Shown: positions 24,760-31,353, numbered from the stretch's first letter. The stretch: 64,000 nt of DNA from Leptotrichia shahii (GCF_008327825.1 NZ_AP019827.1:1178001-1242000); one strand, 5' to 3'. A program made the numbers and translations. The notes: generated by a model not told the origin, from the sequence alone.

Positions 24760-25110
24760 TACAAGATTTCTCTTTTCGCAATTTTATAACCCCAATAATT
24801 TTTTCTCTATTTTTTTTCTAAACTTTCTTTTTTCTTATATTTACCTTGCTCCCTTAATTCACTCACTCCATCTATATTTACTATTTTATCGTTTATTAAA
24901 CCACTCGCTATTCTGTTTATCCTTATTTTTATTTCTTCATAAGTTTTATAACTTATGATAAATTTATTTCCATATTAAAAATTCCTACGAAACTATTTTT
25001 TTTTAACACCTTTCATTATTTTTAAAACAGCATCTCTTTCATTTCCAAAATTTGTATTTAAATTTAATTTTTTACATATTATGCTAATTTATGCTTTTGA
25101 TTAATTTTTT
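24760..25110 (-). pseudogene. Decayed copy of the FtsZ-like gene and start of the nuclease gene
   Basis: Translated on the minus strand with frame changes and stops, the segment reads NTNFGNERDAVLKIMKG, NSFVGIFNMEIN, then TYEEIKIRINRIASGLIND and KIVNID. These match NTNLENERNIALKVIED, NFIGIFDIGNG, TAEEIKIGLNGIVSSLINE and GLVNID of the intact protein at 29207-29872. Next comes DNA matching the first codons of the nuclease gene (ATAGAGAAAAAATTATTGGGG, one base short), in the same order as in the intact operon. The copy is plainly dead. Confidence 0.75.
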
Positions 25111-25199
25111 TCAATGTTGTAAAAAAGTGTAATCAATTTTTTAATTTGTTGCAATACATTATATAATTTATGATTCATTAAATTTTTTATTATTTTTCT

Positions 25200-25295
25200 A
25201 TCATTTTAATTATACCTCAATTTATAATTTTTCAAAATTTAAAATATTATTCTAAATTTTTTATTAAAACGAAAACTTCTCTTAAATTTTTAAAC
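25200..25295 (-). pseudogene. Decayed copy of the WYL promoter region
   Basis: About 90 bases match the intact promoter region at 30878-30968: TTTTAATTATACCT..., TTTTTCAAAATTTAAAA, and a TATTAAAAC...CTCTTAAATTTTT end. TATAAT (25209-25214) and TTGAAA (25230-25235, both minus strand) survive, now 15 bases apart. Between here and 25110 little of the WYL gene is recognisable. Confidence 0.6.
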
Positions 25296-25669: not shown

Positions 25670-27779
25670 ATTTAATAGGAACATTTTGTATTGTAAATTT
25701 ATTTTTTATAATTCATAATTCATATAGTCTAAAAATTTAATAGGAACATTTTGTATTGTAAATATTTGATAAAAAAGTAGCTAAAAACGTGTATGATTTA
25801 ATTTAATAGGAACATTTTGTATTGTAAATATCTCATCTCCAAACTGCTTTAATAACACGTGTATCATTTAATAGGAACATTTTGTATTGTAAATGAATCT
25901 TTTACAACGGCTGGAAGTAAAGGAGCTTATGATTTAATAGGAACATTTTGTATTGTAAATCTTTGAGTATCGTTATCTGCTGTTTCTTCTTCGATATTTA
26001 ATAGGAACATTTTGTATTGTAAATCTTCAGAAGTTCGTTGTCTTCTTGTTGCAACTCTTTTATTTAATAGGAACATTTTGTATTGTAAATCTTGATTCTA
26101 AAAACATCAAAAGAAAATATATTGTATTTAATAGGAACATTTTGTATTGTAAATCTTCTCTAAGTTCATTTCAGGATCGTAAAATCTCATTTTAATAGGA
26201 ACATTTTGTATTGTAAATCAAATTACCGCCGCTATTCCAACGTCTGCAATATCTATTTAATAGGAACATTTTGTATTGTAAATGCTTTACAGTTTTACCA
26301 GTTCCAAGCGTTTTCATCATTTTTAATAGGAACATTTTGTATTGTAAATGCACTTGGCTCTATAATCCTTGAGAATTCCTTTATAAATTTAATAGGAACA
26401 TTTTGTATTGTAAATTTGCTTGTTCCACTCTCTGTATCAACTGTTTTTGCTTTAATAGGAACATTTTGTATTGTAAATACATATCTTTTTCAAAATTTTC
26501 TTTTTCGCCTTCTCATTTAATAGGAACATTTTGTATTGTAAATTTACCATTATCTCTAACAGTACCTCTTATATCATTCTTTAATAGGAACATTTTGTAT
26601 TGTAAATATGCTCCCAAAATCGATATTAGAAAATAATGTCATATTTAATAGGAACATTTTGTATTGTAAATCGATCAACATATGTTTGAAATGGCATATT
26701 ATCCTTTATTTAATAGGAACATTTTGTATTGTAAATCCGCGTGATGGTCCGGCACTTTATCCGAAGCAACAATTTAATAGGAACATTTTGTATTGTAAAT
26801 AACGAATGTTAAATCAAAGCAAATGACTTGGGAAATGGGAGTAAGGAACATTTTGTATTGTAAATAACGAATGGTTTTTGCATAAGAATGAAGGTATTTA
26901 TATTTAATAGGAACATTTTGTATTGTAAATGTTACTGGATCAAAATCCATTTTTGAATATTTTGACTTTAATAGGAACATTTTGTATTGTAAACGCCTAT
27001 TAAGACTTTTCCATCCCTCTGGAGTTGTAGAATTTAATAGGAACATTTTGTATTGTAAACCTTAATAAGGAGGATAAAAATGAGTTTTAGTGAAGCATTT
27101 AATAGGAACATTTTGTATTGTAAAGATGGCAACGTAATAATTTAATTGTTTTTTTGCCGTTGATTTAATAGGAACATTTTGTATTGTAAAGTATCTTCTA
27201 CATAACTATCATAAAAATTACTACAATCATTTAATAGGAACATTTTGTATTGTAAAGGTCAAATTATACAAATATTTAAAAGATATGGAATTAAGATTTA
27301 ATAGGAACATTTTGTATTGTAAAGCAGTAATGCACCCAAGACAATTAATACTGATAAAAATTTAATAGGAACATTTTGTATTGTAAAGAATGATAACATA
27401 CAATTATTAGTGTCTAAATTACAAATTTAATAGGAACATTTTGTATTGTAAAGACAAATAAATTTATATTTCCAGCTGTTATAAATCCAAATTTAATAGG
27501 AACATTTTGTATTGTAAAGTATAAATAAAAATATGTATAAATAAGGAGAATAGAAATTTAATAGGAACATTTTGTATTGTAAAGCAATATGATAAAGATA
27601 ATTATAAGATAAATATATTCGATTTAATAGGAACATTTTGTATTGTAAAGGTCAGAATATCCAATTTTCTTTCGTATATCTTTCATTTAATAGGAACATT
27701 TTGTATTGTAAATAAGACATCGGTTGTGGACAAGGAAAAATCAGATAAGGATTTAATAGGAACATTTTATATTGTAAAT
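25670..27779 (+). CRISPR. CRISPR array 2, 33 repeats and 32 spacers
   Basis: Thirty-three 29-base repeats begin at 25670, 25735, 25801, 25866, 25932, 25996, 26062, 26126, 26190, 26255, 26321, 26387, 26450, 26515, 26579, 26643, 26708, 26772, 26837, 26902, 26966, 27032, 27097, 27163, 27229, 27296, 27360, 27425, 27491, 27556, 27622, 27685 and 27751, with spacers of 34-38 bases. The repeat is that of array 1 on the plus strand. Repeat 19 (26837) has lost its first eight bases, repeats 21-22 end in C and 23-31 in G instead of T, and the last repeat has a G-to-A change. The leader is on the left. Confidence 0.97.
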
Positions 27780-28136: not shown

Positions 28137-28997
28137 TTATTCCTGTAACATCTCATCAAAAATTTCTTTTAAATCAATACTTTCAATAATAGATCGAAGA
28201 ATTAATTTTTCTAGTTCTTCTGAAAAAATAACTTTAATATTTTCTTTTTTACATTCTTCAATTAATTTTGGATTTTCCTCTTTTTTTGCTGAAGTTATGA
28301 CCAAAATTTTATCAATTAGTTTACCATTATTTTCCCATACATATTCCTCGGCTTTATTTATTTGTTTTATAATATTATCAATATTATTATCAGAAATCAC
28401 ATCGTTGTAATTTTTTACTTGCATAGCTATATTGTATTTTTCCAAATTTGAAAGTCCTGATATAGTTACCAAAATATCCGTCCCATGTTTTTCTTCTTTA
28501 CTACCACCAATTCTTTCAATTTCATATCCAGGATAGATTTTTTCTAAAATATTTTTTATTACTTCTTCCCACTGAGAAGCTGTAAATTTTCGATTATATT
28601 CATCAATAACTTTTTCAGAAAATCTCTTTAAATCAAAAGAAGATTTCACTTGTTCTGATACAATGTTTTTTATATTTTCAATAACACTTGTTGATTCCCT
28701 ATTTCCTTCTAAATTTCCCATAATTTTTTCAATATCTTCTGAAAAACGGCTAATATTCCAAAATCTATTTCTTGCTTTTAACGTACTTTGTATATTTCCA
28801 GAAACATCTTTTCCATGTCTGTTAAAACATCCTTTGTACTTTGCAGGAAAAATATGTCCATAATCTTTCTTTTCATCATCAATCTCAAACCCATATGCTT
28901 TATCCCAATCTTCAGTTGCTTCAACTATAGCAACGCTCCCCCAATCTGGCAATCTAGGTATTAACAGTATATCTCCTTTTTTTACATTATGATACAT
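28137..28997 (-). CDS. PUA/EVE-like plus Mrr-like nuclease protein, main open frame (C-terminal part)
   Basis: This 286-aa frame holds most of a two-domain protein. The first part (KKGDILLIPRLPDWGSVAIVEATEDWDKAYGF, then DYGHIFPAKYKGCFNR and LKARNRFWNI) looks like a PUA/EVE-type nucleic-acid or modified-base binding fold. From about residue 135 a PD-(D/E)xK nuclease of Mrr type follows: FTASQWEEVIKNILEKI, then HGTDILVTI and AMQVKNY, which supply the Asp and QxK catalytic elements, and later DKILVITSAKK. The ATG at 28997 has no binding site; the true N-terminus is the 56-aa frame upstream, one base out of phase. Last gene of the WYL/FtsZ-like operon. Confidence 0.65.
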   Translation of the reverse strand: MYHNVKKGDILLIPRLPDWGSVAIVEATEDWDKAYGFEIDDEKKDYGHIFPAKYKGCFNRHGKDVSGNIQSTLKARNRFWNISRFSEDIEKIMGNLEGNRESTSVIENIKNIVSEQVKSSFDLKRFSEKVIDEYNRKFTASQWEEVIKNILEKIYPGYEIERIGGSKEEKHGTDILVTISGLSNLEKYNIAMQVKNYNDVISDNNIDNIIKQINKAEEYVWENNGKLIDKILVITSAKKEENPKLIEECKKENIKVIFSEELEKLILRSIIESIDLKEIFDEMLQE

Positions 28998-29152
28998 TTT
29001 CTAGCACCACTATCCTTTGTATTAGGCAATTTTTGATTTTCAGCATACCCCAAACCTTGTCGTAAACGTCCTTGCTGTAATTCCTTAAAAAAGAAATCTT
29101 GATTCTTTACATCAATTCTGTATCCCCAATAATTTTTTTCTCTATTTTCCAT
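28982..29152 (-). CDS. N-terminal piece of the nuclease gene, separated by a frameshift
   Basis: The 56-codon frame starts at an ATG with GAAGGGAT about 8 bases upstream and reads MENREKNYWGYRIDVKNQ, then FKELQQGRLRQGLGY. It has the YWGYRI...LxQGRLRQGxGY opening expected in front of the GDILLIPRL domain. It overlaps the main frame by 16 bases around AGAAAATG; one extra A would join them. Causes could be real inactivation, an A-tract sequencing error, or -1 slippage. The same start is seen in the decayed copy near 24770-24810, which supports it as the real N-terminus. Confidence 0.6.
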   Translation of the reverse strand: MENREKNYWGYRIDVKNQDFFFKELQQGRLRQGLGYAENQKLPNTKDSGARKCIIM

Positions 29153-29206
29153 CTAAAATCCCTTCTTTCCTGTATTAATTCTATTTCTTCAATTTTCCAT
29201 TCCTAA

Positions 29207-29872
29207 CTACATACTATAAACAGTAACCTTTATGCTTTCTTCATATTCTGGATTCAAAAGACAACACCAAATAATTGTTGCTTTCTCAAAAATATTTGAC
29301 ACAACTTCAACTGTATCCTTTATTTGATCCAATGAAATTTCAGGTCCTCCTGTTATATTAATAAAGACTCTACCGTCTTTATTTTTTTGTAAAGTTCCCA
29401 ATTTTAATTTCAAGTTTTCTAAAAATGTTTCAATATTTTTCAATTCTCCCACTTCAGAAATAAAAGAAACTTTTGACGTTTTTTCAAATAATACTTTTAA
29501 ATCATCTAGGTCAATATTTACTAGTCCTTCATTTATCAAACTACTGACTATTCCATTTAGACCTATTTTTATCTCTTCAGCAGTTTCACAATTTGTGATA
29601 AAATTTATTTTTGAATCAAATAATTCGGCATCGCCATTTCCAATATCGAAAATTCCTATAAAATTACTTCTTTCTGCATCCTCAATTACTTTTAAAGCAA
29701 TGTTTCTTTCATTTTCCAAATTCGTATTTAAAACTATAAAAATTGCATCTGTATTTTGAAAATCTATTCTCAAATTTGCATAGCTATCTTTTGCTCCAAT
29801 GATTTCTAAATTTTCATTTTCAACCACATCTAATGGTGTTTCTCCTAAATTGATTATTTTTATTTTTTTCAC
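29207..29872 (-). CDS. FtsZ/tubulin-like protein lacking the GTP-binding glycine motif
   Basis: The 221-aa protein aligns with FtsZ in its second half: EEIKIGLNGIVSSLINEGLVNID matches the H7-T7 region, with NxDxxD kept as Asn119, Asp121, Asp124, and NITGGPEISLDQIKDTVEVV plus IKVTVYS match the last strands (NITGGP at about 172-177). The N-terminal GTPase half is shortened: the GGGTGTG tubulin signature is replaced by NTNLENERN, so GTP is probably not bound. AAGGAGG is correctly spaced for GTG at 29872. It lies 25 bases after the WYL gene. Function unknown; it may act on housekeeping FtsZ. Similarity was judged by eye. Confidence 0.7.
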   Translation of the reverse strand: MKKIKIINLGETPLDVVENENLEIIGAKDSYANLRIDFQNTDAIFIVLNTNLENERNIALKVIEDAERSNFIGIFDIGNGDAELFDSKINFITNCETAEEIKIGLNGIVSSLINEGLVNIDLDDLKVLFEKTSKVSFISEVGELKNIETFLENLKLKLGTLQKNKDGRVFINITGGPEISLDQIKDTVEVVSNIFEKATIIWCCLLNPEYEESIKVTVYSM

Positions 29873-29897
29873 AGCAATCCTCCTTAATTTCAATAAT

Positions 29898-30839
29898 TTA
29901 TTTTAAAATCTCATATTTAATAACATAATCCCCTTGACTTTTTAGCCACATTTCTGCTCCAAAACTCCCATAAACCTCGGTTAAAACATTATAAATCGTA
30001 TATTCTACATTTTTTTCTTCTCTTTTTTCCTCTTTTAATATTCTTGCAGTTGGAAATTTATCAAGAACGTATTCAATATAACCTTTGTACTCAAATTTAA
30101 TTTTTGTGAGAGGTCCAGAATGCATAAAATGTATATATTTTCTAAATTCACCATCTTTAAATTTGTCAGAATAATTTAAGATTTTAAATTTTCTGCCTGT
30201 ATTTTCTATCTTTTTCATTCTATCAATTCTAAAAATTGCAGGATATTCTTCTTTATTTTCAATATATCCAATTAGATAAAAATAATATTCAGAAAACATT
30301 ATTGACAGTGGCTTTATTCTGTATTCTTTATATTGTTTATCTTTTTTTGTATAATTTAAATGCACCCATTCTTGGTTTTTTATACATTGCGCTAATTTCC
30401 AAATGCTTTCGAGTAGTTTCTGTCCATGTTGTAAAGGAATATAATTCACCTTTTCACTATTTATCAAATTTTTTATTATCTCCCTATCGTTTATTGAGGA
30501 ATTGTTAACTAGTTTCGTTATTAATTTTTCAGTTTCTTCTTTATTAAAAGCCCGACTTTCAAGGATAATTTTACTTATAGCCAAAAGTTCTTCGTTTGTA
30601 AAAGCTATCTTGTCATTCTTTTCAAGACAATAACCTTTTTTTGAACTAGAATATTTTATATCCGATTCACCTTCTTCAAAAAAATAATTCCTCAAAGTAG
30701 CTATATCTCGTTGTATCGTTTTTTTATCGACTCTAAATTCATTAGCTAAATCACTTCTATTCACTATCTCTTTTTGATTCAACCTTTTCATTATTTTTAA
30801 TATTCTAATCGATTTTTCCTCAGAATTTTCATTTTTCAT
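29898..30839 (-). CDS. WYL-domain transcriptional regulator (HTH-WYL)
   Basis: The 313-aa protein has an N-terminal winged HTH (RILKIMKRLNQKEIVNRSDLANEFRVDKKTIQRDIATLRNY, about residues 11-52) and a WYL domain (WVHLNYTKKDKQYKEYRIKPLSIMFSEYYFYLIGYIE, then FRIDRMKKIENT), ending with a WCX-like region. WYL regulators sense ligands, possibly nucleic acids or nucleotides, and often repress defence or CRISPR loci. It is the first gene of a three-gene operon with its own promoter. GAAAGG lies upstream of the ATG. It probably regulates its own operon, and possibly the nearby cas genes. Confidence 0.88.
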   Translation of the reverse strand: MKNENSEEKSIRILKIMKRLNQKEIVNRSDLANEFRVDKKTIQRDIATLRNYFFEEGESDIKYSSSKKGYCLEKNDKIAFTNEELLAISKIILESRAFNKEETEKLITKLVNNSSINDREIIKNLINSEKVNYIPLQHGQKLLESIWKLAQCIKNQEWVHLNYTKKDKQYKEYRIKPLSIMFSEYYFYLIGYIENKEEYPAIFRIDRMKKIENTGRKFKILNYSDKFKDGEFRKYIHFMHSGPLTKIKFEYKGYIEYVLDKFPTARILKEEKREEKNVEYTIYNVLTEVYGSFGAEMWLKSQGDYVIKYEILK

Positions 30840-30882
30840 GATTAAGATTAAGCCTTTCTAAAAAATTCTTCTCAACGTTTTA

Positions 30883-30910
30883 ATTATACCTTGATTTATC
30901 ACTTTTTCAA
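30883..30910 (-). promoter_or_regulatory. Promoter of the WYL/FtsZ-like operon
   Basis: Minus-strand TTGAAA (30905-30910) and TATAAT (30883-30888) are 16 bases apart, about 45 bases before the WYL ATG. The same segment survives in decayed form at 25200-25295. The remaining gap to 31353 is A/T-rich with no recognisable gene. Confidence 0.6.
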
Positions 30911-31353
30911 AATTTAAAACTTTTTCCTAATTTTTCTATTAAAACAAAATTTTCTCTTAAATTTTTTTCTTCAAGATATCTAATATCTCTAACATTCTTT
31001 ATCTCCTTACATTTGTTATTTAATTATACTTTTATATGAGACATCTTTTGTCCCTTTAGAATAAAATTTATTTTTTCAAAAAAATTATGTAATTTCCTAA
31101 ATTTTCAGAATTTTTAAATTTTTATTCTATTCAGATTTTTCTTAAATTCTATAACTAAAATCATAAATTTTAATACTAAATGCAATGTTTTTTTTTAATT
31201 TTTTCAAATTTAATTTCATTACTCCTATACTCAATTTCTTATTATTTTCAGTATATTAAATTAATTTTTTCAGTCAATTAAAAAGATGATATTCCTTTTT
31301 TTCTCAATCTTAACTGAATTAAAACAAGTTACAAAAATAACTTTATTAATAAA

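Follow-up and report, generated by a model that had tools for sequence, protein, structure and literature searches.

A damaged copy of a WYL-headed nuclease operon with an FtsZ-derived protein in Leptotrichia shahii

On balance, we read the locus described here as one damaged representative of a modular operon under WYL control that is directed against phages (or mobile elements) and, when complete, runs A - WYL - Z - D. In this order, found in Leptotrichiaceae, A is a nuclease-like gene, WYL the regulator, Z an FtsZ-derived protein and D one of two nucleases, D1 or D2. The locus lies in a 64,000-nucleotide stretch of DNA from Leptotrichia shahii, which we call the window; the genome that carries it has 2.16 Mb and is Leptotrichia-like.

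What is new is a nuclease operon under a WYL regulator that includes an FtsZ mimic; in the searches made it was confined to one family, and the window copy is damaged. A preceding reading made from the sequence alone (the sequence-only reading) knew of no system with this set, and we found no description of it in PADLOC, NCBIfam or the literature, of which the papers were covered in part. PADLOC 2.0 returned no match to the set, only a generic WYL match plus partial, weak ones, and no defence system containing an FtsZ relative is described in the literature searched, again with partial coverage. A dead FtsZ together with a nuclease under a defence-type regulator would give a testable link between cell division and immunity, through an arrest of division or by baiting phage inhibitors of FtsZ. 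FtsZ is a common phage target. Moreover, two unrelated nucleases that are swapped behind the same A-WYL-Z core offer a clean way to separate sensor from effector parts.

Layout of the operon and state of the window copy

Three closely spaced genes on the minus strand, coding for WYL, Z and the Mrr-type nuclease D2, form the operon in the window, together with the remains of a second copy:

30980-31012, no strand: site of the lost gene A (dead PDDEXK_4 paralogue, ~1.1 kb), which genome G079 has; the two sequences cease to align between 30979 and 31012
30883-30910, minus strand: candidate promoter upstream of the WYL gene, TTGAAA-16-TATAAT, 11 of 12 consensus positions
29898-30839, minus strand: WYL transcriptional regulator, 313 aa, with HTH_11, WYL and C-terminal domains (Pfam); 92-96% identical in five related loci
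29207-29872, minus strand: Z, FtsZ-derived; GTP-binding loops lost, T7 loop (NIDLDDLK) and C-terminal domain kept
28985-29152, minus strand: 5' part of D2, covering the initial ~56 codons (reader domain), in a different frame from the main part
28137-28997, minus strand: main part of D2, with the remaining reader domain and the Mrr-like PD-(D/E)xK domain, GTD...QVK kept
24779-25291, minus strand: second operon copy, now a fossil, with its genes in the same order (promoter 25291-25192; WYL fragment 25123-25068; Z fragments 25062-24871; start of D2 24841-24779)

The tight spacing given in the sequence-only reading is confirmed, but the third gene is frame-broken and an upstream gene, A, has been deleted. 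The promoter that the genes were said to share is retained as a candidate, and the segment that bears it is ~99% identical across five related loci. No RNA family and no terminator were found in the region scanned. The fossil copy, of ~0.5 kb, still keeps the promoter segment at 83% identity and has cas4 to one side and the CRISPR array (about 25671-27778) to the other; beyond the array comes the main copy, so that the array is flanked by two operon copies in the same orientation. The placement at the edge of a CRISPR locus is thus true of this genome, but no cas genes were recognized in the 20-kb neighbourhoods of the relatives, and we have dropped CRISPR association as a conserved feature.

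WYL and Z are intact, but with A gone and D2 thrown out of frame by a deletion near 29000, the operon is probably impaired in this strain. Gene A is also absent elsewhere in the window genome. The ~56 starting codons of D2 (29152-28985) stand in another frame than the main part, whereas in four relatives the gene is a single open reading frame of 341-350 aa. We see almost an even chance that the window operon is a functionless remnant, which would be compatible with the same type of operon defending cells elsewhere; the loss of A, the broken D2 and a second copy that is already fossil all point that way. What speaks against it is the intact state of WYL and Z, the conservation of the promoter segment, and D2 itself, which may restart at ATG 28997, keeps its catalytic motif and shows a dN/dS of 0.30-0.42.

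Regulator, nucleases and exchange of modules

The first gene matches Pfam WYL (E=5e-11) plus HTH_11 and PADLOC WYL (E=6e-25), in agreement with its earlier naming as a WYL regulator, and its protein presents the HTH and WYL domain layout of WYL-domain defence regulators. The regulation of phage defence by WYL proteins is well described (PMC9122601, PMC9122588, PMC4012209). Regulators of the BrxR/CapW type (PMC9122601, PMC9122588) share the HTH-WYL-C-terminal layout and the association with defence operons, but differ in the systems associated with them. Its relatives keep similar company. Proteins 38-44% identical to it, on plasmids of Lactococcus, Lachnospira and C. difficile, stand at the head of operons that encode BnzB together with full-length BnzA (E=5e-128), LeoA-like dynamins or a homologue of PDC-M40B; other relatives, 48-49% identical, head HPr-dynamin and NERD-helicase operons in Leptotrichiaceae. 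These operons are established or predicted defence systems. The Leptotrichia operon therefore resembles the Bunzi and LeoA/LeoBC operons in having such a regulator in head position, but apart from WYL it is without a BnzA, BnzB or dynamin match; neither BnzA nor BnzB was matched among the operon genes tested.

Two of the WYL-headed operons contain host-like proteins. On the lactococcal plasmid pNP40 (L105:3986-7573), WYL is followed by a BnzB-like gene and by one for a 486-aa protein that ends in EF-Tu domain 3 (E=7e-23). In another Leptotrichia WYL operon (L072:8535-10381, L073:7707-10312), an HPr-domain protein is followed by dynamin-like GTPases; its phosphorylation-site motif reads GIDIYFA, where GLHARPA is expected in HPr.

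The only recognizable catalytic motif of the operon sits in D. In the window D2, the match to Mrr_cat (E=1e-3) falls just below the curated cut-off, reaching 6e-11 in a homologue of the same architecture, and GTD...QVK is conserved in all five homologues. The Mrr-like nuclease of the sequence-only reading is thus borne out. The EVE/PUA assignment of the domain in front of it, in turn, found no Pfam match, and the model of this domain has a pLDDT of 53. The N-terminal domain is nevertheless conserved and turns up in fusions with both Mrr and GmrSD nucleases, which would suit a DNA reader; in G050 (L058:1-2088) it is joined to GmrSD_N in place of Mrr. A low-confidence model of D2 gives weak but consistent matches to MspJI, Cap4 and AspBHI, and D2 shares with such enzymes an N-terminal domain before an Mrr-like nuclease. 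What sets D2 apart from them is its place in a WYL operon, next to A and Z.

The alternative nuclease, D1, is a PDDEXK_4 protein that passes the Pfam cut-off in G074 and keeps the PD-(D/E)xK motif IDVLL...IIEDK. It shares its family with the PDDEXK_4 proteins (PF14281) and partially matches the PADLOC candidate PDC-S26, but it is paired with its dead paralogue A, with WYL and with Z. A and D1 are homologous (BLASTP E=1e-7). In A, motif III of D1, IIEDK, is replaced by YFRDF, FFKCF or YFRNY, and the Asp of motif II is not invariant; judged by these motifs, A is of PD-(D/E)xK descent but has lost the catalytic residues.

Orthologues of Z were surveyed in 98 Fusobacteriota genomes and found in ten, all of Leptotrichiaceae (two genus labels). 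In all ten, Z lies directly behind the WYL gene, at several chromosomal sites, so that the linkage is more than chance. A precedes WYL in nine of the ten Z-bearing loci and was found only beside the WYL gene of this operon. Each locus has one D, which is D1 in six and D2 in five (including G081), never both. G074 shows the intact arrangement A-WYL-Z-D1 and G079 shows A-WYL-Z-D2, while in G081 the order is A-WYL-D2, and Z must therefore be dispensable. Damage is found in A (G080, G071), D1 (G077, G078) and Z (G071), besides D2 and A of the window. G076 has the genes that flank the second location but no operon. The sequence-only reading had proposed a neighbourhood analysis and counted confinement of the linkage to the genus against itself: the linkage is consistent, but only within Leptotrichiaceae. 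Beyond Fusobacteriota, searches of viral, plasmid, phage and genome collections found Z only in L. hongkongensis, and this absence elsewhere is weak evidence because the searches used short exact peptide patterns or single-sequence tblastn.

The identity between the window and G079 changes along the operon: it is 96-100% from 30936 to about 30120, about 58-85% from ~30120 through the C-terminal part of WYL and Z, and mostly 80-98% again in D2 from ~29165. This alignment pattern indicates that the modules recombine and that a breakpoint is inside the WYL gene. The N-terminal part of WYL and A form diverged alleles shared by location; the C-terminal part of WYL and Z form two alleles, and D exists as two unrelated types. 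G074 combines a window-like C-terminal part of WYL with the common Z. The syntenic blocks of related genomes are mostly 84-94% identical, and the N-terminal part of WYL, gene A and the window Z form the diverged alleles. Z goes down to 47% identity between alleles, while host FtsZ is conserved. Between alleles, dN/dS is about 0.5 for A and Z and 0.12-0.17 for WYL at comparable or greater silent divergence, a comparison limited by saturation; within the main allele, the values for Z (dN/dS 0.06-0.46) indicate purifying selection. G079 and G070 share 97% identity in Z, which was considered as a sign of recent transfer; we have withdrawn this, the synonymous divergence of 0.15 being close to the 0.19 of another gene, P311, between related genomes (G000 vs G070).

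The FtsZ-derived protein and its possible action

Z matches FtsZ_C of Pfam (E=5e-7) and the NCBIfam FtsZ model (E=5e-10). Its start is likelier at GTG 29872, behind AGGAGG, than at TTG 29893 of the ORF list, which gives a product of about 221 aa within a range of 221-235 aa for Z proteins. The AF2 model of a relative has a pLDDT of 79.6, and the 50 best PDB matches listed are all FtsZ, with TM scores of 0.67-0.78. In an alignment that includes canonical FtsZ and three further Leptotrichia paralogues, Z shows neither the GGGTGTG signature nor the GTP loops, and much of its N-terminal domain is missing. The C-terminal domain is kept, and so is the T7 loop, which reads NIDLDDLK in the window and TLDLADLK in relatives, where the first residue is changed. 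The FtsZ likeness claimed by the sequence-only reading therefore stands, but without the GTPase signature Z is not a functional FtsZ; by its motifs it is a catalytically dead FtsZ paralogue. We have rejected a role as functional FtsZ or as a TubZ-like plasmid protein, given the missing GTP loops and the lack of a plasmid or phage homologue in the collections searched.

Leptotrichia genomes (G000, G070, G066) hold up to five FtsZ-family genes with a stepwise loss of the GTP signature: GGGTGTG in the canonical protein, GGSTGSG in one of ~314 aa, GEKTGT in one of ~311 aa, SEKKNN in one of ~284 aa, and none recognizable in Z of ~235 aa. Which of these paralogues is the exact parent of Z is unsure because its branch is long. 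In G070, two FtsZ paralogues have a gene for a ToxN-type toxin (E=4e-36) between them (L046:8533-11196).

Diverged FtsZ relatives in conserved gene neighbourhoods have been described before as FtsZl1 and FtsZl2 (Makarova and Koonin 2010, PMC2875224), and Z is like them in both respects. However, both are described as retaining the GTP-binding loop that Z has lost. For FtsZl1, moreover, no T6-H7 part and no standard C-terminal domain could be recognized (PMC2875224), which is the reverse of Z, and neither the coiled coil of FtsZl1 nor the C-terminal region of ~300 aa of FtsZl2 is seen in Z, with its 221-235 aa and no GTP loop.

As a dead FtsZ, Z most likely works by binding, either as a filament cap or as a decoy. 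It may be a division poison, a nucleotide-blind subunit that docks through its T7/C-terminal face onto the GTP-bearing end of FtsZ filaments, so that division halts during the action of the nuclease. The kept aspartates of the T7 loop beside the lost GTP loops would suit such a subunit, and so would a predicted fold that is shrunken yet FtsZ-like. We nevertheless hold this to be rather unlikely, since the N-terminal domain is reduced and a divergence of Z alleles down to 47%, next to a conserved host FtsZ, is unexpected if host FtsZ is the sole target. The growth arrest that the sequence-only reading attributed to a division-type protein is something that we can only infer.

The divergence and exchange of Z alleles also speak for a decoy, in which a dead FtsZ imitates the host protein, phage inhibitors of FtsZ bind to it, and their binding releases the nuclease. 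The presence of host-like proteins (HPr-domain, EF-Tu domain 3) in other WYL-headed operons adds some weight. We still regard the decoy as unlikely, as the examples number only three, HPr and EF-Tu may have been co-opted for unrelated ends, and G081 does without Z. The wider proposal, that WYL-headed defence operons use dead imitations of essential host proteins (Z for FtsZ, HPr, EF-Tu domain 3) as bait, so that phage attackers trigger the effector, seems doubtful to us. It can be likened to the integrated decoys of plant immunity.

Defence or another function

A role in defence, as the sequence-only reading proposed, is likely from the context: the nuclease is exchangeable, the copies are patchy and often broken, restriction-modification and CRISPR-Cas genes are neighbours, and the WYL relatives head defence operons. 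Type I restriction-modification genes lie within about 10 kb of four loci (G077, G080, G066, G074), and the window locus adjoins CRISPR-Cas. On the contrary side, other selfish or conflict genes would be expected to be mosaic and decayed too, operons with Z are found only in Leptotrichiaceae, four loci are set among housekeeping genes, and Z is dispensable in G081. WYL regulators also control non-defence genes.

The operon could instead be a regulatory or toxin-antitoxin-like module that tunes division or DNA turnover, with WYL sensing metabolism or DNA damage. Family restriction and housekeeping surroundings would agree with this, and WYL proteins that control DNA-damage responses are described (PMC10693628, PMC11804915). 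We consider it improbable given the patchy presence, the exchange of unrelated nucleases, the frequent decay, the neighbouring defence genes and the company of the WYL relatives.

Returning to the defence operon, its mechanism might be as follows. WYL would hold expression low and release it on a ligand derived from infection. A and Z would be non-catalytic partners that sense or gate by binding, and Z would most likely bind a protein through its FtsZ-like face, capping FtsZ filaments or baiting phage proteins that attack FtsZ. D would cut DNA, destroying either foreign DNA or the infected cell. A further defence context is found for a D2 homologue in G020, a genome of the same taxonomic order, where a gene of the reader-Mrr type adjoins a SMODS CD-NTase and an S_4TM effector (L080:6285-10293).
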